From assembly GCA_030618495.1 (NCBI GenBank), contig JAUXDE010000072.1, positions 1-9,053 on the forward strand: 9,053 bases of DNA, written 5' to 3'. This stretch comes from Clostridia bacterium. GTDB taxonomy: Bacteria > UBA6262 > WVXT01 > JAUXBS01. The notes under the pieces were generated by a model. The model did not search any database. It saw only the letters and a program-made list of their open reading frames with translations, and was not told the origin of the DNA. Position numbers and translations under genes: made by a program. Positions within the stretch are counted from its first letter, which is position 1, and each line of letters opens with the position of its first letter. This document shows positions 1-9,053 of this stretch, piece after piece.

Positions 1-1871
1 GGAGATAGCAGAACGTCTTTTAACTCTTCGTTATTTTCCTTTAAGAACAGGGTTATTTCTTCGTATTCCTTTTCCAGTTCATCTAAAATAGCCAGTTTAT
101 ACCTGTAATATGAATCATATTGCTCTTCTTTGCTTATTTCTAAATATTTATTCTTAACCCGGTTATACACGCGCCCACAAAAGCTTCTTGCTTTTTCATA
201 GTCAAGCGCCCCGGTAGAAAACAAGGATTGCACCATGAACTTCCTGTCTTCATCTGAAACATCCAATTTACCCGGACTGCAATAATCCGCGTAAGTTCTA
301 ACCTTACCAGCAATTACATCATCAACAAGTTCCATTTCTTCGATGGCGGGAGTGTAACCGGGCATTAACTTCAATATTTGCTTAAGATACACCCTTGATG
401 CTGAATAAAACTTCCTGCAATTCATGATTTTTGCCAGGTAATAAAGATTTTCTATGTCATAAGGATTATACATGTACAGGTAGGAAAAGAAATACTCTGA
501 CCAGTCGTATAAACCGGCGCTAAAATACACCTTCCCCGCTGATTTGAAAAACAGCATTCTATCCTTTACTTTCTTTTTTTTAATGGGTGGAATCCTGGCA
601 TCATAGGAATGTAGTTCTATGTCCATAAGAAACTCATGTTTCTTTATGAGTTTTGAGAGTTCAAACAGGTAGTAGAAAGCCGTTCTGTTATCTCCTTTCA
701 TGTTATAAATATCTGACAGAAAGGAAAGCGAATGCTTTTTCCTTTCAGGGGAACCCTTGTCTGCGATAAACATAAGATGTTTTATGGCTTCATCAAGCAA
801 TCCTGCTTCATAATAACTTTTTGCCAGCCTGTATTTTGCTTCTTCACCCTTCTGTGAATTCCAGAAAGTAGCATCTGTAGCGTATCGCCTGTTTTCCATG
901 AACGTGCAGGGCGCAAAATATAAGCCAACCAAAAATATAATCACGAATGTCAAAGATTTTATTTTCTTAATCCTGTCATAAGCCAGGTAAAATATGAATG
1001 AAAGCGCGATTGAATAAATTACAGCCGGAATATACAGGCACTTCTCAATGCAATGAACAGAACCATTCCGGTATGGATAAATAAAAATTACTATACTTGA
1101 AATAACCGTTTTAAAAGCCTCCCATATAACCTTAATAGACTCTCCCGGTATAAATTCTTTTTCAGGAAAATACGTAAGAGGATAGAGGTTTATCCTCAGG
1201 GTTATAAAATGATATAACATAGAAATTATTAACATTGCCATGAATAGAATAAGCACGCGGCCTGGTTTGAGGTTGCTTTTCTTAAAAATCAGCGCTGCCG
1301 CCAATAGAAAGAGAAGAGCGGGTAAAACGACGAGTATAAGGTTGGAGTTAAGTAATCCACCCAGAAACATTATGATACTGAGCGCATAGTACCTTGCCCT
1401 GTTTTTTTTCAATGCAAGCAGTGCCGGTATCAGGGTGCCTAACAATAAAATAACATCTAACAGCAAATGAATATTATCAACTACATTAACGGCAACAGTA
1501 GAAACAGGGTGAACCAAAAACACTATGGCCCCGAACAGCGCAACCTTGTCTTTTCTTAAAATAATAAAAATAAGGGCATACAAAAGGAGCGCGCCTGCAA
1601 CATGAAGCAGTATCAGCGATATCCTCCAGCCAATAATGTTATTCTCTCCGATAACAGTCTTTAAAATAGCCCCGACAGCCAGGCTTAAGGGATGATATTC
1701 ATCTTTGTAATGCAGGACTGCCCTGGTGAATATTGCCGGGATGTTCCTGTAGTTATGAATAAGAGGATTATTTGCGATAGAATCATGCCCTGAAATAAAT
1801 GCGGTATTATTAAGCGAGTTGGAATAAACAATGAAACCTAAAACTATTATTAATAAATATTTTTTCAGCAT
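1..1871 (-). CDS. TMTC-like GT-C membrane protein with TPR-type tail (partial, C-terminus off the left edge)
   Basis: The frame is open from the ATG at 1871 to the window edge, giving 623 residues with no stop. Residues 1-325 form a multipass membrane region. The first non-membrane loop, FISGHDSIANNPLI (25-38) followed by IPAIFTR, and later LLHVAGALLLY (88-98) and VHPVSTVAV (120-128), follow the layout of TMTC/PMT-related GT-C proteins, where an Asp in the first loop (here D30) is usually catalytic. After the last membrane segment, ATDATFW (331-337) leads into helical repeats such as AKYRLAKSYYEAGLLDEAIKHL (345-366), a TPR-like unit. The rest (about 370-623) is helical, charged and poorly matched to TPR consensus. 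The gene starts 21 nt after the haem protein gene and is the last operon gene visible here. The ribosome site is weak. Glycosyltransferase activity is family-level inference; the usual HPxxxE..R motif is degenerate, so a non-catalytic scaffold is possible. Confidence 0.75.
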   Translation of the reverse strand, partial: MLKKYLLIIVLGFIVYSNSLNNTAFISGHDSIANNPLIHNYRNIPAIFTRAVLHYKDEYHPLSLAVGAILKTVIGENNIIGWRISLILLHVAGALLLYALIFIILRKDKVALFGAIVFLVHPVSTVAVNVVDNIHLLLDVILLLGTLIPALLALKKNRARYYALSIIMFLGGLLNSNLILVVLPALLFLLAAALIFKKSNLKPGRVLILFMAMLIISMLYHFITLRINLYPLTYFPEKEFIPGESIKVIWEAFKTVISSIVIFIYPYRNGSVHCIEKCLYIPAVIYSIALSFIFYLAYDRIKKIKSLTFVIIFLVGLYFAPCTFMENRRYATDATFWNSQKGEEAKYRLAKSYYEAGLLDEAIKHLMFIADKGSPERKKHSLSFLSDIYNMKGDNRTAFYYLFELSKLIKKHEFLMDIELHSYDARIPPIKKKKVKDRMLFFKSAGKVYFSAGLYDWSEYFFSYLYMYNPYDIENLYYLAKIMNCRKFYSASRVYLKQILKLMPGYTPAIEEMELVDDVIAGKVRTYADYCSPGKLDVSDEDRKFMVQSLFSTGALDYEKARSFCGRVYNRVKNKYLEISKEEQYDSYYRYKLAILDELEKEYEEITLFLKENNEELKDVLLS

Positions 1872-1892
1872 CTGGAATCCAGGTAAAAAGAA

Positions 1893-3551
1893 TTATTTTA
1901 AGTCATTTATGACTTCTTCTACGTTACGGACAAAACCTTTGTTCATGACCTTATACAGTTTCCCGGCATCAATCCCCGGGGACTGTTTCTGAAATTCGGG
2001 AACATTATAACTCTTCTGGCTAAACTTCTTCTCGGGTAACATCACCGGAGGCGAACTCAACCCATTCTCATCTATTTCGGTAAGATAGAGTTTGGTAAAA
2101 ATACCGTCGTCTCTTTTTGAAGCAAATATCAGCCACCTGCTGTTGGAAGACCAGCTATGCCATGAATCTGCCGTGTATTCCGCATTACAAGCAAGACGCC
2201 TTACTATGTTTTCTTCCATGGAATAAATATATATATCACTGGAGGGTTTAATCAATGAACCATATTTTGACCTGCAGAAAGAAATCCATTTTCCATCCGG
2301 AGAAAATCTCGGGTAATGATTACTCATACCGTTAAATGACGCGCCCTTCAATGGCGCAGGCTCACCACCCCTGCCGTCATTATAAGGGATAAGGAATATA
2401 TTATACTTCTGCCTGTACCGCCCTTCTTTTGCCGATTCTACTGCATCCCTGCAAAATGCTATAGTTTTCCCCCCGGGTGACCAGCGGGGATAATTTTCCA
2501 GGTATTCAGGGTCGCTTGCCCCGGGTAAGAGAGAAATGGTATTTTTCTCAGTATCATATACCGCTATATCCGCCGTAGGGCTGAATGCGTACTGGGTTTC
2601 CTGGGTTATAGGCGTACTGCTTCTTAATTTCTGCCTCACGCTTAAAGCTAATTTTCTGCCGTCAGGTGACCAGCATACGAAAGTACTTCCCCCGAGAGGA
2701 ATTTTAATTCTCTCCCCCGACTTTTCTTTTATATCATATATAAAAAACCCGGCCCCGCCCCTGTGCATGTTTCTCCACGGGATACACACCTTATCGCTAT
2801 TCGTTTTACCTGTGAACGTATGACACGAAGCGCAGAATCTACCTTTACAGGGCAGAAATATCTTAGTCTTAAAACTACTTAAATACCTGATAAATATATT
2901 CGGGGTTTTTGCCGCATTAAAGGAGGGAGACACCAAACGATAGATAACAACTTCGTCAGCAGGGAATTCTGATATCCTGAAAGATACCGGATGACTTCTA
3001 TGTATTTTATTTTTTTCTGCATTGCTGTCTGCCTTACACCCCAGCACCCGCATGCTGACATGCTGTCCGGCAGCTTCTTTCTTTATTCTTGACCATATTC
3101 TCCCCGGCGGCCTCCATGATTGTTTGCGCGTAACAACCTGTATCCCGGTGCCATTTTCCAGGATAAATTCAATGAGCCACAGGTTATTATTTAAATCATC
3201 CCATTTAAACAGGGGCGGGGCAATATTTGCCGGGAAAGAAGCCTTATCGTAAGGCCTGTATATTTGCAGTAATTCAGGTTTTTTTCTGTTCCTGTATACA
3301 GTAGGAACGTTCTCTTCTTTTTTTATGCTGGCTCCGGATACAGCGTCTAAACCAGCCGTAGAACCGGGAAGGAATTCTATTTCCTGGCAGGGTATATCTA
3401 TTATTTCTATATCCGCGGACGTAAAGCAGTTCAACTGCTGTTTCCCTGTACCCTTATCAAAAATAATAACCGGGTTGTTGTCTTTTATGGATACAAGCCG
3501 GTAAAGTACGAGCGCCAACAGAAGACTTATCAGTACAACTATACGTTTCAT
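1893..3551 (-). CDS. Membrane-anchored mono-haem (CxxCH) protein with TolB-like/PD40 beta-propeller
   Basis: 552 residues from the ATG at 3551. This start is chosen because it follows the ccsA stop by 23 nt, has an AAGAGG ribosome site just upstream, and begins a signal anchor (MKRIVVLISLLLALVLY). An upstream ATG at 3647 would overlap ccsA by 73 nt. Order of parts: signal anchor 1-20; a short segment with DAVSGAS (69-75) resembling the end of FMN-binding domains; an FN3/Ig-like domain about 94-200 (YRPYDKASFPANIAPPLFKW near its start); the haem motif CASCH (240-244); then propeller blades with WSPDG, WSPGG and FSPDG turns near 294, 357 and 416 and a last blade near 465-478. The protein should sit outside the inner membrane with covalently bound haem. 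M262/H263 are possible distal ligands. It matches a family of uncharacterised TolB/cytochrome hybrids. Function is unknown; electron transfer or redox sensing is inference. Confidence 0.82.
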   Translation of the reverse strand: MKRIVVLISLLLALVLYRLVSIKDNNPVIIFDKGTGKQQLNCFTSADIEIIDIPCQEIEFLPGSTAGLDAVSGASIKKEENVPTVYRNRKKPELLQIYRPYDKASFPANIAPPLFKWDDLNNNLWLIEFILENGTGIQVVTRKQSWRPPGRIWSRIKKEAAGQHVSMRVLGCKADSNAEKNKIHRSHPVSFRISEFPADEVVIYRLVSPSFNAAKTPNIFIRYLSSFKTKIFLPCKGRFCASCHTFTGKTNSDKVCIPWRNMHRGGAGFFIYDIKEKSGERIKIPLGGSTFVCWSPDGRKLALSVRQKLRSSTPITQETQYAFSPTADIAVYDTEKNTISLLPGASDPEYLENYPRWSPGGKTIAFCRDAVESAKEGRYRQKYNIFLIPYNDGRGGEPAPLKGASFNGMSNHYPRFSPDGKWISFCRSKYGSLIKPSSDIYIYSMEENIVRRLACNAEYTADSWHSWSSNSRWLIFASKRDDGIFTKLYLTEIDENGLSSPPVMLPEKKFSQKSYNVPEFQKQSPGIDAGKLYKVMNKGFVRNVEEVINDLK

Positions 3552-3574
3552 ACGCCTCTTTTTCGCCAGACAGG

Positions 3575-4354
3575 CTATAAGTAGGAATGCAACCCCGAGA
3601 GAATAAAAGGTACTCCCAGATAAGTAAACATAAGAACAAGGTAGCAAAAGACCGCAAGTACGGCAAGTCCTATAGTTTCTTCTTTTCTCTTTATAAATTT
3701 AAGAACAACATACAATGAATATATTAAAAACGTTATCAGTGAAAACGTTTCCTTGGGATCCCAGCCCCAGAACCTGCCCCATGCAATCCTGGCCCATATG
3801 CTTCCCAGCACCAATGCTCCAATACTGAACTGCGCGTAACCTGCCACTATGAGTTTGAATGAGGATAGTTCAAGCGCCTGCACTTCCAGGTTGCTCCCAT
3901 CCCGGGCTTTTCTATAGAGGTAAATGATTGAATTGATGAACCCCAGCGTCAGGAACGTATAACCTGAAATGGTTATCCCTACATGGACAGGGAGCAGCCA
4001 GGATTGGAATGCTTTGATGGGGAGCGTATCGCCGCCTATATGATAAAGAACCACGCTGATACAAATGAATACTATTGAAACTATAACGGGGAGCTGTCCA
4101 AGCAGTTTATTGCGGGAAACCGAGTGAAACAACATGAGGAAGAATCCCAGCAGTACAAGCGTGTCTGCGACAGTAAGCATTGGGAAGAACCTGAGCCTGT
4201 ATGCCCTGGCAACCAGGGAAAAAAGGTGCAAAGCCAGAACCAGCCAGAGCATAACTTTAAAGTTCACATTCAGGTTCAGCTTGATCCTTAATATATTTCC
4301 GGCAAAATAAAGAACGTATCCGGTCAGGATAATAATTGTATAATTCACATCCAA
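3575..4354 (-). CDS. ccsA: Cytochrome c biogenesis protein CcsA/ResC type
   Basis: 259 residues, close to the short end of the CcsA/ResC range. It is a multipass membrane protein with the family's signature haem-handling WWD motif, WGRFWGWDPKE (192-202), followed by TFSLITFLIYSLYVV. Histidines expected to ligate or present haem are visible at H43 (ALHLFSL), H124 (LLPVHVGITISGY) and H256 in the terminal LSGLHSYL. In system II the CcsA and CcsB partners export haem and attach it to CxxCH apocytochromes outside the inner membrane. No CcsB/ResB gene is present here. The start is TTG at 4354; GTG at 4348 is the alternative, and the ATG at 4350 is out of frame and stops at once. The gene lies 27 nt after the RidA-like gene, in the same frame, with that gene's TAA as the only stop between them. 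The neighbouring CxxCH protein is the obvious client. Confidence 0.93.
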   Translation of the reverse strand: MDVNYTIIILTGYVLYFAGNILRIKLNLNVNFKVMLWLVLALHLFSLVARAYRLRFFPMLTVADTLVLLGFFLMLFHSVSRNKLLGQLPVIVSIVFICISVVLYHIGGDTLPIKAFQSWLLPVHVGITISGYTFLTLGFINSIIYLYRKARDGSNLEVQALELSSFKLIVAGYAQFSIGALVLGSIWARIAWGRFWGWDPKETFSLITFLIYSLYVVLKFIKRKEETIGLAVLAVFCYLVLMFTYLGVPFILSGLHSYL

Positions 4355-4381
4355 ATTATACGCTCGTTTCTTTTTGCTGTC

Positions 4382-4807
4382 TTAGCCGTCTTCCCGCAGG
4401 GCGTCGGCTTCTATTTCAACGGTAAGGTCTTCCCGGCAGAGCTTTGCCTCCACGCAACATGAAGCAGCCATGTTTTCTCTGGTGATGTTGTTATTGCAAA
4501 AGAATTCATCCCTTATTTTGTTAAACCTGTCATAATACTTTGCAATATCGCTCAGGTAGATGCGCCACCGTATAACATCACTTACTTCAAAACCCCTGCT
4601 TGTGAGCAGGTCCTTGATGTTCTTGTAAGTGTGTCTCGCCTGGGCCTCGAAGTCACCCGGAGACATGGTTTCGCGGTTGGGCCCGACGCTTGAGGTGCCG
4701 GATATAAGAAGTATCCTCACGTTGCCTGTTTTCAACTCCGTAGCCCTTGGGAATCCCGCTTCAGGAGCAGGTAGGCTGTCAATGTTAAAAGGTATTTTCT
4801 TTATCAT
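4382..4807 (-). CDS. RidA/YjgF-family protein lacking the catalytic arginine
   Basis: 141 residues, slightly longer than RidA (about 128). Family features are ISGTSSVGPN (36-44), the helix FEAQARHTYKNIKDLL (53-68), GFEVSDVIRWRIYLSDI (72-88), YYDRFNKIRDEFF (91-103) and the closing strand CVEAKLCREDLTVEIEADA (118-136). In RidA the segment ARSCVE carries Arg105, which is needed for enamine/imine deamination. Here the aligned segment reads ASCCVE, so the arginine is Ser116 and is followed by two cysteines. That places the protein among arginine-less Rid-like or chorismatase-like members, and deaminase activity is not expected. An AAGGAAAGAAG ribosome site precedes the ATG. It is the first gene of the leftward operon, about 86 nt downstream of the predicted transcription start. 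Its link with cytochrome genes is unexplained. Confidence 0.87.
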   Translation of the reverse strand: MIKKIPFNIDSLPAPEAGFPRATELKTGNVRILLISGTSSVGPNRETMSPGDFEAQARHTYKNIKDLLTSRGFEVSDVIRWRIYLSDIAKYYDRFNKIRDEFFCNNNITRENMAASCCVEAKLCREDLTVEIEADALREDG

Positions 4808-4899
4808 TTTTATCTTCTTTCCTTCTGAGAATTGCCGGGGAATCTTGACCCGGGATTGTCAGTGAATTTTACCCCACTTCTTGATCGTATTACGGTTTA

Positions 4900-4928
4900 A
4901 TTATACTCTTTGTTTCTGCAGTAGTCAA
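4900..4928 (-). promoter_or_regulatory. Sigma70-type promoter of the leftward operon
   Basis: Read on the minus strand, TTGACT (4928-4923) and TATAAT (4905-4900) are separated by exactly 17 nt. The -10 is perfect and the -35 matches 5 of 6. Transcription would start near 4893 and run into the RidA-like gene at 4807, leaving a leader of about 86 nt. A small hairpin (CCGGG/CCCGG, 4835-4853, 9-nt loop) lies in that leader. Confidence 0.8.
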
Positions 4929-4944
4929 CTTGTTTATTTCTCCT

Positions 4945-4963
4945 GCCTGTTTTTTTAGCCTGT
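4945..4963. repeat. Tandem GCCTGT direct repeat upstream of the leftward -35
   Basis: GCCTGT occurs twice, 13 bp apart start to start and separated by TTTTTTA, ending 17 bp upstream of the leftward -35 element. The position would suit an activator site or UP-like A-tract element. This rests on position and repetition only. Confidence 0.3.
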
Positions 4964-5048
4964 AACTTACCATCCCGGGTTCTGTTTCCGGCAAGGTTAA
5001 AACCTATGCGCGTGGACAAATGAGTCTTATCCTTCGGTAAACTTCCCC

Positions 5049-5077
5049 TTGCATTTCCCCCGATAATTAGATATTAT
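5049..5077 (+). promoter_or_regulatory. Probable promoter driving the tRNA-like fragment and the three-gene module
   Basis: TTGCAT (5049-5054), a 17-nt spacer and TATTAT (5072-5077). The -10 matches 5 of 6; the -35 is weak (TTG only). Support comes from the second copy at 6237-6265, with the same -35 hexamer, the same spacer length and a tRNA-like sequence at almost the same distance. The module has no other obvious promoter. Confidence 0.55.
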
Positions 5078-5101
5078 ACTCATTAAATTAAGTTCGATCA
5101 C

Positions 5102-5129
5102 GGAGAGTTGCCCGGGTGGTTGAAGGGGT
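5102..5129 (+). pseudogene. tRNA-Ser 5' fragment (acceptor strand and D arm only)
   Basis: The sequence reads as a bacterial tRNA-Ser start: GGAGAGT (acceptor 5' strand), TG at positions 8-9, then a D arm with CCC paired to GGG around GGGTGGTTGAA. After GGGGT the match stops; there is no anticodon stem, variable arm or T arm, and the sequence becomes AT-rich and leads to the DUF5674 start 27 nt later. It is a fragment, not a functional tRNA. If transcribed from 5049-5077 it would form the leader of the module's mRNA. Confidence 0.6.
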
Positions 5130-5155
5130 GAATTAAATAACGATAGAATCTTAAA

Positions 5156-5497
5156 ATGGAAATTATTAAAGATAAAATACCCATAGGTGAATTAAAAACA
5201 ATTGCAGAAAATATGTTTGGCAATATGGTTAAAGCTGTAGTTGATACGGAAAAGAAAATCATGGCTGTAGGTGGTGAACTTCATTCGGATGAAGAGGCGA
5301 TTTTACTTGAAAATGGTTCAAAACAGCATAGCCTGTGGGGGATCAACCTGTATGTGGATATTGAAGATGATAGCTGGATCGAGTTTGATTCTATGATAAA
5401 TCTCAGGCCATCCCAGGGGAATCGTACCCGTAACGTTGATGACTCCGGCATAAGAAGCAGTATAATTGAAATTGTCAATAACCTGGTGGAAAGATGA
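5156..5497 (+). CDS. DUF5674 family protein
   Basis: 113 residues, a soluble small protein with no signal peptide or membrane segment. It shows the features I associate with DUF5674: an N-terminal helix with FGNMVKAVVD (21-30), the strand IMAVGGELHSDEEAILLENG (35-54), KQHSLWGINLY (56-66), the acidic strand SWIEFDSMINLRPSQGNRTR (73-92), and a C-terminal helix IRSSIIEIVNNL. The conserved acidic and polar residues (GELHSDEE, EFD, RPSQGNR) cluster as in an active or binding site, but no activity is known to me. No clear ribosome site lies before the ATG, which is unusual given the tRNA-like leader. Its stop overlaps the next start as ATGA, so the two products are probably translationally coupled. 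Confidence 0.8.
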   Translation: MEIIKDKIPIGELKTIAENMFGNMVKAVVDTEKKIMAVGGELHSDEEAILLENGSKQHSLWGINLYVDIEDDSWIEFDSMINLRPSQGNRTRNVDDSGIRSSIIEIVNNLVER

Positions 5498-5823
5498 ATT
5501 ATCAGCATAAGAATTTAGCTTCAGGCAAATGGTTTGAACTAACATTTTTTGAGCAAATGGCAAATGTTGGAAGTGAAGTTGAGCGGGCTATCAGCTGGAG
5601 GGATAAGAACAGGGAATACAGTATCAAGGCTATAGAGCGTGCCCTTGAATTGCTGGGTTTAACCATAGAGAATACCAAAAACAGGATACACTTAAAAGAA
5701 TTGAAGCGCTTGCACGAAGTACTGGTTGATTATTTTTATTTTGATAATCAATTTGTTTCTTCCGACAAATTATGGCATAATTATTTTCATCCTTTCAATT
5801 ACGCTGCCAGGCGAAACAAATAA
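5494..5823 (+). CDS. Conserved small helical protein of unknown function, coupled to DUF5674
   Basis: 109 residues, predicted all-helical and soluble. The ATG overlaps the preceding TGA by 4 nt (ATGA) and has a GGTGG ribosome site inside the end of the upstream gene, which settles the start. Visible blocks are FFEQMANVGSEVERAISW (18-35), SIKAIERALELLGLTIE (43-59), KNRIHLKELKRLHEVLVDYF (62-81) and SSDKLWHNYFHPFNYAARR (89-107). I recognise this as the pattern of an uncharacterised family seen in candidate-phylum genomes, without a named function. There is no HEPN RxxxxH signature, nuclease motif or DNA-binding helix-turn-helix that I can defend. Tight coupling suggests that it acts with the DUF5674 protein. 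Confidence 0.78.
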   Translation: MNYQHKNLASGKWFELTFFEQMANVGSEVERAISWRDKNREYSIKAIERALELLGLTIENTKNRIHLKELKRLHEVLVDYFYFDNQFVSSDKLWHNYFHPFNYAARRNK

Positions 5824-5856
5824 GAAAGTGCTGCCTTTTTGGCCGGAAACAATAAA

Positions 5857-6168
5857 ATGAAAAATGAAATCAGGTGTTTAAATGAATATCATAACGTTAC
5901 AGGTTACGGGATATCCCAGGGAACAGATGACTATTTTCTTCTAAAACTGGCAAACGACACCATGGTCTTTAGTCAAGCTAAATATTATTTAATGAATGCA
6001 GAAGCAAGTTTAGCTGACCTTCAGGCTATGGATGATGCCGGCTCTGTTACTGTTCCGGCAGGGGATACAAAAAACTACAATACCCAGCTGGGGGATATAG
6101 TAAATTATGTAGAAGGCGATTTGCCCACGGGCAGTCAAGTGCTGGTTCTTGATTTATTTAGTTTTTAG
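5857..6168 (+). CDS. Unrecognised small acidic protein
   Basis: 103 residues from the ATG at 5857, which has CCGGAAA about 9 nt upstream; a TTG at 5839 would add six residues but lacks a good ribosome site. The gene follows its neighbour by 33 nt and is probably co-transcribed. The sequence contains YGISQGTDDYFLLKLANDTM, then a helix-like SQAKYYLMNAEASLADLQAMDD, then VTVPAGDTKNYNTQLGDIVNYVEGDLPTG. The product is acidic and apparently cytoplasmic, with no signal, membrane segment or catalytic motif. I cannot assign it to a family. It could be the remnant of a larger protein or a cargo gene of the element that occupies this region. Confidence 0.6.
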   Translation: MKNEIRCLNEYHNVTGYGISQGTDDYFLLKLANDTMVFSQAKYYLMNAEASLADLQAMDDAGSVTVPAGDTKNYNTQLGDIVNYVEGDLPTGSQVLVLDLFSF

Positions 6169-6182
6169 CTGTTTCTCAGAAT

Positions 6183-6194
6183 AATAGGGTCAGG
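6183..6194 (+). repeat. Left end of an inverted repeat pair (AATAGGGTCAGG)
   Basis: AATAGGGTCAGG here is matched in inverted orientation by CCTGACCCCTATT at 6704-6716 (one extra G/C). The pair encloses about 534 bp. The GGGTCAGG core resembles ends I associate with REP-like elements mobilised by RAYT transposases, which is recollection rather than a match I can check. Confidence 0.5.
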
Positions 6195-6236
6195 TTTTGG
6201 CATTTGACATTTTTACCTGTCATTATAACTTTCCGG

Positions 6237-6265
6237 TTGCATTTTCCTTCATAAATAAGTAATAT
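6237..6265 (+). promoter_or_regulatory. Second tRNA-type promoter
   Basis: TTGCAT (6237-6242), a 17-nt spacer and TAATAT (6260-6265), placed 22 nt before the tRNA-Ser-like sequence at 6288. It mirrors the promoter at 5049-5077 in -35 hexamer, spacer and distance (24 nt there). Even the flanks share TTGCATTT and a TCATT block after the -10, which supports descent from a common tRNA-Ser promoter region. Confidence 0.5.
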
Positions 6266-6287
6266 ATCATTCTGTTACTCAGTCTAC

Positions 6288-6340
6288 GGAGAGGTACCCA
6301 AGTGGCTGATTCACAGGAGGGGGTTTGCTAACCCGACCGA
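6288..6340 (+). pseudogene. Degenerate tRNA-Ser(GCU) 5' half
   Basis: GGAGAGGTACCCAAGTGGCTGA (6288-6309) matches the acceptor strand, positions 8-9 and the D arm of tRNA-Ser. After an irregular stretch, GGGTTTGCTAACCC (6321-6334) looks like an anticodon arm with GCT at 6327-6329, though its stem pairs poorly as a 7-nt loop. No long variable arm, no GGTTCGAATCC-type T arm and no 3' acceptor strand follow. It is therefore a truncated or decayed tRNA gene. Confidence 0.6.
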
Positions 6341-6454
6341 AGAAAAAGTAACCTACCGACGATAATCTTATTAATCCTTTAATTTATTGATGATTTCGTA
6401 TTTTGAGTATTTGTATGCATTGATGGTATTTTAGGTCTTTTCTTCTATAGTAGG

Positions 6455-6470
6455 GACACTATTTAGACAC
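6455..6470 (+). repeat. GACAC direct repeat with 11-bp period
   Basis: GACAC occurs at 6455-6459 and 6466-6470, one helical turn apart, within GGGACACTATTTAGACACC. It could be a protein-binding site upstream of the 6506 promoter or the scar of an insertion-sequence end. There is no further support. Confidence 0.25.
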
Positions 6471-6505
6471 CAGTGGATGTTACCATTCTCACGCTAATTC
6501 AATTC

Positions 6506-6534
6506 TTGACAAGATATCTGTAGTGTGATAGAAT
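6506..6534 (+). promoter_or_regulatory. Strong sigma70-type promoter in the AT-rich block
   Basis: TTGACA (6506-6511), a 17-nt spacer and TAGAAT (6529-6534): a perfect -35 and 5 of 6 at -10. Transcription would start about 6541-6542, at or next to an ATG (6542). It points to a leaderless small peptide mRNA or a small RNA. Confidence 0.65.
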
Positions 6535-6541
6535 CAATCAA

Positions 6542-6658
6542 ATGAAATTAATACTATTTAAACAACAGGTTGTAGTTGGTTGTGCCATAGCATATCAGAA
6601 GAAACATATTGATTATCAAAATAAAATAACGATAAACGGAATCCGGAATTCAGCGTAA
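6542..6658 (+). CDS. Possible leaderless 38-residue peptide
   Basis: An ATG-to-TAA frame of 38 codons starts at or within a nucleotide of the transcription start predicted from 6506-6534, so the mRNA would have no leader and no ribosome site. The product begins MKLILFKQQVVVGCAIAYQK and continues into a polar, basic tail. It has a short hydrophobic stretch but not a full membrane segment. A frame this short can occur by chance; a non-coding small RNA from the same promoter is equally possible. No family is recognised. Confidence 0.25.
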   Translation: MKLILFKQQVVVGCAIAYQKKHIDYQNKITINGIRNSA

Positions 6659-6703
6659 TATTTACCTTTCACTATTTTTATTCTCTCCTAAAAGTTGTTG
6701 AGG

Positions 6704-6716
6704 CCTGACCCCTATT
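6704..6716 (-). repeat. Right end of the inverted repeat pair (CCTGACCCCTATT)
   Basis: Reverse complement AATAGGGGTCAGG, the partner of 6183-6194. It contains the stop codon (TAG, 6714-6712) of the surface-protein gene, so this repeat abuts and may have shaped the gene's 3' end. Confidence 0.5.
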
Positions 6717-9053
6717 TTATTTTTACCATTTTGCCGGTTGAGCTGATGGTCTGACCTTCGTAAACAGCTTCTATCCTGTAAAAGTATAAGCCGTTTGCCA
6801 CTTCATCACCATTTTCATCGGTCCCGTCCCAACTGTACTTGTTATAACCTTCATAATATGGTGTAACGTAATCGGTCATTATCAACCGCCCCGACAGGGA
6901 ATATACCTTTATCTTTATGTAATCGGGAAATTTGCCCAGCGTGAATATTATTTCCGTACTTCCGCTGAACGGGTTGGGATAGTTCATGACCTCCGTAATC
7001 TCCGTCTGGCCGCTGACTGCGTACCCCAGTACCGCATAGATGGAAAGATGGCTTACCGTCAGCATACTCAGCCCGCTTTCGTAGTCAAAATCGGTATCCT
7101 CATCAGGCTGCCTCTCCCACGTCCCGCGATGCTCATTGAAGTAATACACCCTCAGTTTAGCATCATCCACATTGGTGCCCATGGGATAGGGCAGGGTTAC
7201 CTGCGGCCTTGTGCCTTCGAACTGCAGGTCACTGTCACCCAGGGGGGAACCACCCTCGTCTAACAGCCTAAAATCAGTCAGTGAACCTTCAAAAAGTGAT
7301 TGGTTATAAATAATTGACGGGTCTGAACTTAAAGCTTCAAGTGAAGCGTTTACCTTGTCTGCCAGGATCGGTTCAATTTCATTGTAATCCAGGAATTCGG
7401 CCGTGAGTATGATCCGGGTCAGGCTGTCTGCAGGAATGTTTATAGATGCCTCACTCGAATCATCCTCTATTATGGTGCCCTGAGTCGGCGCTAAAAACAC
7501 GTTAATAGGGAACGAATCCTCGGACAGTCCGGTTCCCGTAACTTTCAGTCTATACACATCAGGCATGGAAAAACTAATATTTTCAAACCTGCCCGTGCCA
7601 CTGCTCAACTGTATCTGCAGGGACGAAACCGCCACGTTATCCGGGTTTCCCTCCACAACGGTTAGATTAACAATACTGCTGACATTGGTTATTGGCTGAC
7701 TCTCCTTGTCCTCCACCGTTACGACAAGGTCTACTTCAGTTTCCTTCTGAGCGCCTGCGACATTTACATCCATGGTTGTATGAAATGGATCTGTCAGTAG
7801 TTTTATTCTTGCGTTAGCCGGCGGTACATCTATAGAACCCTGTGTCAGCCCGGAGGAGGCTGCAGTCACCGTACCGGTGCTTGAGCCCACCAGTATCATG
7901 GCAACGGTGGCAATGCCTCCCACAGCATTAACTTCCAGGCTGCCTGAAAGAACACCCGCCCCCGAGACCGTAAAGGTTATACTGTTGATTGCCGTCGTCA
8001 CAAGGTTCCCGCCGTCGTCCGTTATGCTTGCGGTTATCGCCGCAGTTGTGATTCCGTCCGCCACCAGCTCTGCAGGGCTGGCAGTGCAGATTATTTTAGT
8101 GGAACCACCAAAAGTTATATTCACCAGCACCGTTCCCGTATCGAGCCCTGTCGACTCCGATGTCACAACAGCGGGGCCAATGCTCAGGGTGGATACCATG
8201 TGTATCGTCGCAATGCCGCCGGACGCGCTTACGGGATTCGGGTCACCTCCCGAAAGAACCCCTTCCCCTTCAATACTGAAGGTTACATCGTTCGTGGCGC
8301 CGGGTACGGTTACATCACCGCTGTCGCAAAGCCTCGCGGTTATGAGTGAAGTTGAAGCACCGTCCGCTTCTATTGATAACGGGTCTGCAGTAGCAATTAT
8401 CTTTACCGGCTCGGGCGTGGTCGTTATATCAACATTGCCTTCCGCAAGGTTGTCGGACGTTGCCGTCACAGAAGCCGTGCCCGAAATAGCCGTTGACTGC
8501 ATGTTAATCACCGCCAGCCCTCCCGATGCCAGCTTCACTGTTGCACCTGATAACGTTCCTTCACCTGACACGCTGAAAGTTACCGTGTTGGTTGCGCTCG
8601 CCACAAGCTGCTCTGAATCATCAACTAATCTTGCGGTTATAAGTGAGGTGCTTGAACTATCCGCGACTATACTTGTAGGGTCCGCTGTACAGATAAGATG
8701 GTCAGCAGCGCTCGGGTTTAGCATTATTACTTCAACCGCCCCCTCAGTCAAACCGGAACTCGTCGCCCCTACCGATGCCGTGCCTATTTCCAGGGTTGAC
8801 TTCATCATGACCGTTGCAATTCCTCCCGAAGCAGCCTTCTGCGTCGTATCAAGTAATGAGCCACCCCCGGATATACTAAAGGTTATTTCTTCTAGTGCAG
8901 AGTTAACCAACCCCCCCACGGCATCGCAAACCTCCGCCGTTACCAGCGATGTGCTTGAACTGTCTGCAAGTATAGATACATTATCAGCGTTGCAGAGGAG
9001 CTTCACCTGCCTCGGAGTTGTCTCCACCTCTATTATTCCCTGGTTCAGACTAC
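6712..9053 (-). CDS. Large secreted surface protein with invasin-type Ig repeats and C-terminal sorting/FlgD-like domain (5' end off the right edge)
   Basis: At least 780 residues. The frame stays open to the right edge, and the residues before a possible GTG start at 9027 (SLNQGIIEVETTP) are the end of another repeat, so the real start is outside. Counting from that GTG: four Ig-like (Big_1/invasin) repeats of about 100 residues at 8-108, 109-207, 208-309 and 310-405, each with a pattern like ADSSSTSLITA, then TFSVSGEGTLSG, ASGGIATV and ATSSGLTEG; a divergent beta-sandwich at about 407-511; a ZU5-like segment at about 517-668 (IPADSL near 531, LPYPMG near 612, VSHLSIYAVLG near 658); and a C-terminal domain, YPNPFSGSTEIIFTL (683-697) to GLYFYRIEAVYEGQT and GKMVKIK. 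That domain is the FlgD-Ig/type IX sorting-like tail. The protein is probably exported and cell-surface attached or released. Adhesion is inference. It is visibly more GC-rich than its neighbours. Confidence 0.88.
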   Translation of the reverse strand, partial: SLNQGIIEVETTPRQVKLLCNADNVSILADSSSTSLVTAEVCDAVGGLVNSALEEITFSISGGGSLLDTTQKAASGGIATVMMKSTLEIGTASVGATSSGLTEGAVEVIMLNPSAADHLICTADPTSIVADSSSTSLITARLVDDSEQLVASATNTVTFSVSGEGTLSGATVKLASGGLAVINMQSTAISGTASVTATSDNLAEGNVDITTTPEPVKIIATADPLSIEADGASTSLITARLCDSGDVTVPGATNDVTFSIEGEGVLSGGDPNPVSASGGIATIHMVSTLSIGPAVVTSESTGLDTGTVLVNITFGGSTKIICTASPAELVADGITTAAITASITDDGGNLVTTAINSITFTVSGAGVLSGSLEVNAVGGIATVAMILVGSSTGTVTAASSGLTQGSIDVPPANARIKLLTDPFHTTMDVNVAGAQKETEVDLVVTVEDKESQPITNVSSIVNLTVVEGNPDNVAVSSLQIQLSSGTGRFENISFSMPDVYRLKVTGTGLSEDSFPINVFLAPTQGTIIEDDSSEASINIPADSLTRIILTAEFLDYNEIEPILADKVNASLEALSSDPSIIYNQSLFEGSLTDFRLLDEGGSPLGDSDLQFEGTRPQVTLPYPMGTNVDDAKLRVYYFNEHRGTWERQPDEDTDFDYESGLSMLTVSHLSIYAVLGYAVSGQTEITEVMNYPNPFSGSTEIIFTLGKFPDYIKIKVYSLSGRLIMTDYVTPYYEGYNKYSWDGTDENGDEVANGLYFYRIEAVYEGQTISSTGKMVKIK
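7813..9053 (-). repeat. Four in-frame ~300-bp protein-coding repeats
   Basis: Units at about 8704-9006, 8407-8703, 8101-8406 and 7813-8100 encode the Ig-like repeats, and the tail of a fifth unit lies at the right edge. Units 1 and 2 share ADSSSTSL almost exactly, while unit 4 is most divergent. Repeat number could vary by recombination. Confidence 0.75.

Follow-up and report, generated by a model that had tools for sequence, protein, structure and literature searches.

Truncated tRNA-Ser genes in a draft genome of a Clostridia bacterium as likely scars of integrative elements targeting the tRNA 5′ half

Introduction

The window analysed here is the whole of contig C22 (9053 bases) of a draft genome of a Clostridia bacterium (G000, a MAG of 1.69 Mb, 98% complete; referred to as the own genome). 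It carries two pieces of tRNA-Ser genes, site 1 and site 2, each behind a promoter of the same layout, and the locus raises the question how these pieces arose and why it is the 5′ halves that were kept. A preliminary description of the window proposed that the two pieces flank a three-gene module and that they result from tRNA-targeted integration or recombination, with an outcome opposite to the usual one.

Results

The promoters and tRNA-Ser starts could be confirmed at both sites and at the positions described before (TTGCAT, a 17-nt spacer, TATTAT or TAATAT, then GGAGAG; Table 1). When the two promoters were aligned they reached a score of 19; the best of 1000 dinucleotide shuffles scored 16, and none was as good (0/1000). 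Over 6288-6334, site 2 is 83% identical (E 4e-7) to the only intact tRNA-Ser(GCT) of the own genome (C61:39862-39951). Both pieces had been described as truncated tRNA-Ser genes with a D arm and no T arm; the assignment was borne out, but the extent of site 2 had been understated, as it runs past the D arm into the GCT anticodon stem-loop GGGTTTGCTAACCC. Site 1 (5102-5130) is identical to the own Ser(GCT) at 22 of 28 positions and to the 5′ end of the Ser(CGA) of an order-mate at 23 of 28. In a scan of 322 kb of sequence from the own order and from the Omnitrophota genome G290, with both strands counted, matches of at least 21/28 were found elsewhere only in tRNA-Ser genes or fragments, and the background never reached 21/28. 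The source tRNA of site 1 is not certain, and the exact site-1 27-mer had no match in IMG/VR. The suggested comparison with the tRNA-Ser genes of the genome thus revealed similarity for both pieces; the covariance-model search that had been suggested as well gave no signal, since neither ARAGORN nor Rfam identified a tRNA at either site of the window, as expected for pieces this short. No 3′ fragment of a tRNA-Ser gene was seen in the window, only 5′ halves. In the own genome, tRNA-Ser genes for GCT, GGA and CGA were present; Ser(TGA), seen in order-mates G002-G005, was not found there, which may be an assembly gap.

Table 1. Positions of the promoters, tRNA pieces, genes and element-end motifs in the window.
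Feature	Position	Strand	Remarks
Block without counterpart in five order-mates at E<=0.01	4821..5889	.	flanked by two G001-homologous stretches
Site 1 promoter, TTGCAT-17-TATTAT	5049..5077	+	TTGCAT 5049-5054, TATTAT 5072-5077; like site 2 promoter
Site 1, 5′ piece of tRNA-Ser gene (acceptor strand and D arm)	5102..5130	+	starts GGAGAG at 5102
DUF5674 protein, 113 aa	5156..5497	+	PF18924 E 1.6e-33; foreign cargo
ORF2, 109 aa, four-helix protein	5494..5823	+	follows DUF5674 in distant genomes
ORF3	5839..6168	+	homology starts at 5890; 3′ remnant of a ~340-aa gene, complete in G001
Site 2 promoter, TTGCAT-17-TAATAT	6237..6265	+	TTGCAT 6237-6242, TAATAT 6260-6265; conserved in G001
Site 2, 5′ half of tRNA-Ser(GCT) ending in anticodon stem-loop (crossover region)	6288..6334	+	GGAGAG from 6288
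Element-side motif CCTACCGACGATAA	6352..6365	+	near-inverted copy of TTTATCGACGGTAGG upstream of intact C61 tRNA-Ser(GCT)
Arm-type repeat GGACACTATTTAGACACC	6454..6471	+	~120 nt after site 2; same motif in a comparable setting in G003:C57 and the G290 element

The D loop of site 2 is altered by the 13-mer TGATTCACAGGAG (6307-6319), which is not tRNA-like, and its insertion indicates that site 2 is decayed or remodelled. This 13-mer was found 14 times in five of the six genomes of the order, and a reversed control was found 0 times. About half of the copies lie 0-2 nt past the 3′ end of tRNA-Ser genes or of copies of that end, and the remaining ones are partly located just ahead of start codons; at site 2 the 13-mer replaces the D loop.

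The window was compared with close relatives, namely the congener G001 (n=1) and the order-mates G002-G005 (n=4). Positions 1-4820 are collinear with G001, the collinearity ends at 4820, and the block that follows is bounded on its other side by a second homologous stretch (5890-6279), which lies on a different G001 contig. An intact tRNA-Ser beside RidA in the congener was considered as a candidate and rejected; the congener has none there, and the window and G001 diverge at 4820. The second stretch shows 85% DNA identity and covers the end of the ~340-aa gene together with the site 2 promoter. This match identifies ORF3 as what is left of a resident gene and the site 2 promoter as resident too, presumably as the promoter of tRNA-Ser(GCT); the site 1 promoter resembles it. 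The G001 contig stops just where the tRNA after the conserved site 2 promoter would start, and the assembly of the congener contains no empty site.

The DUF5674 gene has a patchy distribution, as it was identified in 27 of 290 genomes and in none of G001-G005, and elsewhere ORF2 usually lies directly behind it. DUF5674 and ORF2 are therefore a widespread mobile two-gene pair that is foreign here. Of the proposed three-gene module this pair was confirmed as foreign, but ORF3 is part of the resident sequence that flanks site 2. For that reason the three genes do not form one module, and a single cassette of all three was rejected. Upstream of the DUF5674 homologs in other genomes no tRNA half was found, so that the link to site 1 is particular to the own genome. 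No informative PADLOC, NCBIfam or PHROG family was obtained for either protein, and their AlphaFold models, although confident (pLDDT 95.7 for DUF5674 and 90.8 for ORF2), gave no convincing PDB match. DUF5674 was not mentioned in the literature searched.

The arm-type repeat downstream of site 2 has the appearance of integrase arm sites and is presumed to mark the left end of an element. An arm pattern derived beforehand from sites in the own genome occurs there four times with up to two mismatches, in three of the four cases beside Ser(GCT) 5′ sequence. Such repeats are present on the C61 side and at window positions 6454-6471, and in the phage contig L306 on both sides of the core. Using the arm pattern alone, with no tRNA sequence, contig C57 of G003 was found, which shows in order a promoter, a Ser(GCT) 5′ half ending ...GGGTTTGCTAAA, element DNA, and an arm repeat ~100 nt on. 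Window positions 6286-6371 align to this contig across the junction (72%, E 2.5e-8). The flanks of the left-behind half and of the intact gene in G003 could not be reconciled with a single integration. Together with the promoter kept in the congener, the end signature GGACACTATTTAGACACC makes attL the best reading of site 2.

At site 1 no arm repeat was found. Its ungapped continuation to 5150 bears a weak resemblance to the tRNA/element junction of G003:C57 (34/49 overall); the downstream part of the continuation matches at 12/22 (shuffle fraction 0.0046). Judged by sequence, site 1 is probably a decayed junction of the attL type.

Integrase-free copies of the left end, found with the same pattern in G005:C67 and G003:C83, contain the core TTTGCTAAA and are immediately followed by a gene for a small protein. 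In these loci (L237, G005:C67, 1-4110; L239, G003:C83, 16954 onward) core and arm repeat accompany a protein of 122 aa that is metallopeptidase-like by look. G005 has two arm copies 2.5 kb apart, possibly a tandem array of mini-elements. An arm-type repeat preceded by CGACGACAAACC, with no tRNA, occupies the same place in both congeners (L225, G000:C119:889; L220, G001:C148:4015) and may be what is left of an old element end at a target other than a tRNA. When G002/G005 and G003 were examined as a filled/empty pair, 9.4 kb of signalling genes with no integrase was found between Ser(TGA) and Ser(GCT) in G002/G005.

No integrase and no attR were found within the window. On C61 the intact tRNA-Ser(GCT) lies just downstream of a C-terminal remnant of a Phage_integrase (tyrosine integrase). 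The frame of this integrase extends up to the 5′ end of the tRNA and the middle of the gene has been lost through decay; the motif GGACACCAAATGGACACC is located ~60 nt before the 5′ end of the tRNA. Relatives of the integrase piece were sought in 84,980 species genomes. The nearest ones, L113 (67%) and L114 (71%), come from one Aerophobetes and one Omnitrophota genome, and in both cases an intact tRNA in the same orientation has its 5′ end 40-46 nt downstream of the integrase end. The three integrases form one branch (SH-aLRT 96), and all three face the 5′ end of the tRNA, whereas more distant tRNA-flanked relatives mostly face the 3′ end, which is the usual arrangement. These relatives, which integrate into tRNA 5′ halves, support the earlier suggestion of tRNA-targeted integration, and the retained 5′ halves, noted as the opposite of the usual outcome, are explained by a reversed target orientation. 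At a different tRNA, L240 (G001:C116, 3959-4119) is another end of the reversed type, with an arm repeat and a piece of an integrase C-terminus (FRSKMDTL) ~90 nt before an intact tRNA-Thr(TGT).

G290, the Omnitrophota genome of L114, contains a complete element with an integrase of the C61 clade. An intact tRNA-Ser(CGA) is located at C148:20062, and 9.4 kb upstream on the same contig (C148:10663) lies a displaced, identical 5′ half of 39 nt that ends exactly in the anticodon loop. Both att copies are thus 5′ halves. The displaced half is followed ~120 nt on by the arm repeat GGACACTATTTGGACAC, the cargo comprises two AbiE-type pairs, a Fic protein and exopolysaccharide-export-like genes, and the integrase is at the right end. 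A still shorter 5′ stub 83 nt further upstream of the displaced half shows that 5′ halves can accumulate there too. On the phage contig L306, the repeat GTGGACACAGAATGGACACA stands on either side of a tRNA-Lys 5′ half that stops at the anticodon loop, as expected of attP.

Further copies were found in the own genome. A third Ser(GCT) 5′ fragment starts at 7991 of C143, and 2.8 kb before it (C143:5183-5220) lies a copy of the site 2 promoter (84% over 38 nt), which stands ahead of a GH116-like gene (856 aa; the name was read from the sequence, with no family search). The order over positions 4960-8040 of this locus (L039) is IS1380-like transposase fragment, promoter copy, GH116-like gene, arm repeat and Ser(GCT) 5′ half, an arrangement suggestive of one more decayed element whose cargo lies behind a captured promoter. 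A 30-nt piece consisting of the core only is present on C156.

Discussion

In this study, sites 1 and 2 are interpreted as junctions left by integrative elements in which a tyrosine integrase targets the 5′ half of tRNA-Ser genes with a crossover in the anticodon loop, and this interpretation is considered likely. It builds on direct observations, namely the homology of the sites, the conserved promoter, the arrangement of integrase and tRNA, the element-end motifs and the complete element of the same clade in G290. According to the proposed mechanism, the element would supply a tRNA 5′ half of its own. Recombination within the anticodon loop would join this half to the resident 3′ half, so that the tRNA is restored beside the integrase gene (attR), and the resident promoter and 5′ half would be displaced to the other end (attL). 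Site 2 would then be the attL of tRNA-Ser(GCT), made up of the resident promoter, the 5′ half up to the anticodon loop and element DNA with arm-type repeats. The intact tRNA-Ser(GCT) behind the decayed integrase on C61 would be the attR that goes with it, or else the attR of a sister element. C22 and C61 may hold the two ends of one event, although they are different contigs in the draft MAG. Site 1 would have arisen in the same way, as an older and more decayed promoter and 5′ half with the foreign DUF5674-ORF2 pair directly behind, and the resident gene remnant that precedes site 2 may have been joined to it later, at a point between 5824 and 5890.

Promoter and tRNA-Ser 5′ end might also have been copied by ordinary duplication, through illegitimate or homologous recombination or an IS and with no integrase, which would make the sites plain tRNA pseudogenes. 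Site 1, which has no element-end motifs, would fit such an origin, as would the IS1380-like fragment adjoining the promoter copy on C143 and the other rearrangements around tRNA-Ser in draft genomes of the order. However, the fragments at site 2, in G003:C57, in G290 and on the phage contig L306 share an end point in the anticodon loop and have arm-type repeats after it, and random duplication would not stop there every time; it is therefore regarded as unlikely. Far less probable still is an island of the usual orientation, with an integrase that targets the tRNA 3′ end and 5′ halves that are incidental deletions of once intact tRNA genes. Targeting of the 3′ end is far commoner (PMC6563490) and is the orientation of most of the distant tRNA-flanked integrases, but the supported branch of the C61 integrase faces the 5′ end in 3/3 cases, both att copies of G290 are 5′ halves, and the window contains no visible 3′ tRNA-Ser fragment.

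The half tRNA ahead of DUF5674 could, in principle, be under selection as a regulatory 5′ leader that acts as a processing site or decoy, and its location within the presumed transcript of the DUF5674 pair, ~25 nt before the ATG, would agree with this. Such a function is highly improbable, as the other DUF5674 homologs have no upstream tRNA half and as site 1, which gives no covariance-model signal, retains only the acceptor strand and D arm.

Integration with a crossover in the 5′ half, the reading preferred here, would leave the resident tRNA promoter reading into the left end of the element. The sequence is compatible with a captured tRNA promoter in front of DUF5674, and the cargo would be transcribed from the promoter left behind. 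It is conceivable, albeit doubtful, that reversed integration acts as a promoter trap, in which cargo at the left end would be placed on a strong constitutive host promoter, and thereby expressed, while the 5′ half supplied by the element keeps the tRNA alive. The left-end genes point away from the displaced promoter in G290 (AbiE), on C143 (GH116-like) and in the window (DUF5674), and those of G003/G005 point away from the core/arm end. The next gene behind site 2 itself has the opposite direction. The reversed mode can put incoming genes directly behind the host promoter and half tRNA left at the site, and whether host tRNA promoters are hijacked for cargo becomes testable. An orphan 5′ tRNA half that still has its promoter intact can be read as the scar of a rare mode of integration, and a tRNA 5′ half up to the anticodon loop, followed ~100-120 nt on by paired GGACAC-type repeats, can serve as a search signature in draft genomes.

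An integrative element with reversed target orientation was reportedly described by Zhao and Williams in 2002 (J Bacteriol 184:859-860). The elements found here belong to this known reversed-orientation kind, as new members. Compared via the account of the citing paper, both recombine at the 5′ part of the tRNA, which is supplied by the element while the resident 5′ part ends up at the opposite end; the lineage is different and presumably the integrase clade as well. Unlike that element, those described here have left several decayed ends per genome, presumably cross over in the anticodon loop, and carry paired GGACAC arm repeats. Integration at the 5′ part of tRNA genes is described as much rarer than integration at the 3′ end, with Zhao and Williams 2002 among the sources cited (PMC6563490). 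The thaumarchaeal element CalSub-E1, which resides in the 5′-distal region of a tRNA-Ser, was the sole 5′ case among 39 tRNA-targeting elements (PMC6563490); it shares with the elements studied here the target gene family and the targeted gene half, but is archaeal. Islands and prophages with the usual 3′-end attB are similar in that they have a tyrosine integrase, a restored tRNA, a fragment at the far end and defence or toxin-antitoxin cargo. In those islands, however, it is the 3′ fragment that moves away, leaving the resident promoter with the intact gene, whereas here the displaced 5′ fragment keeps the resident promoter.
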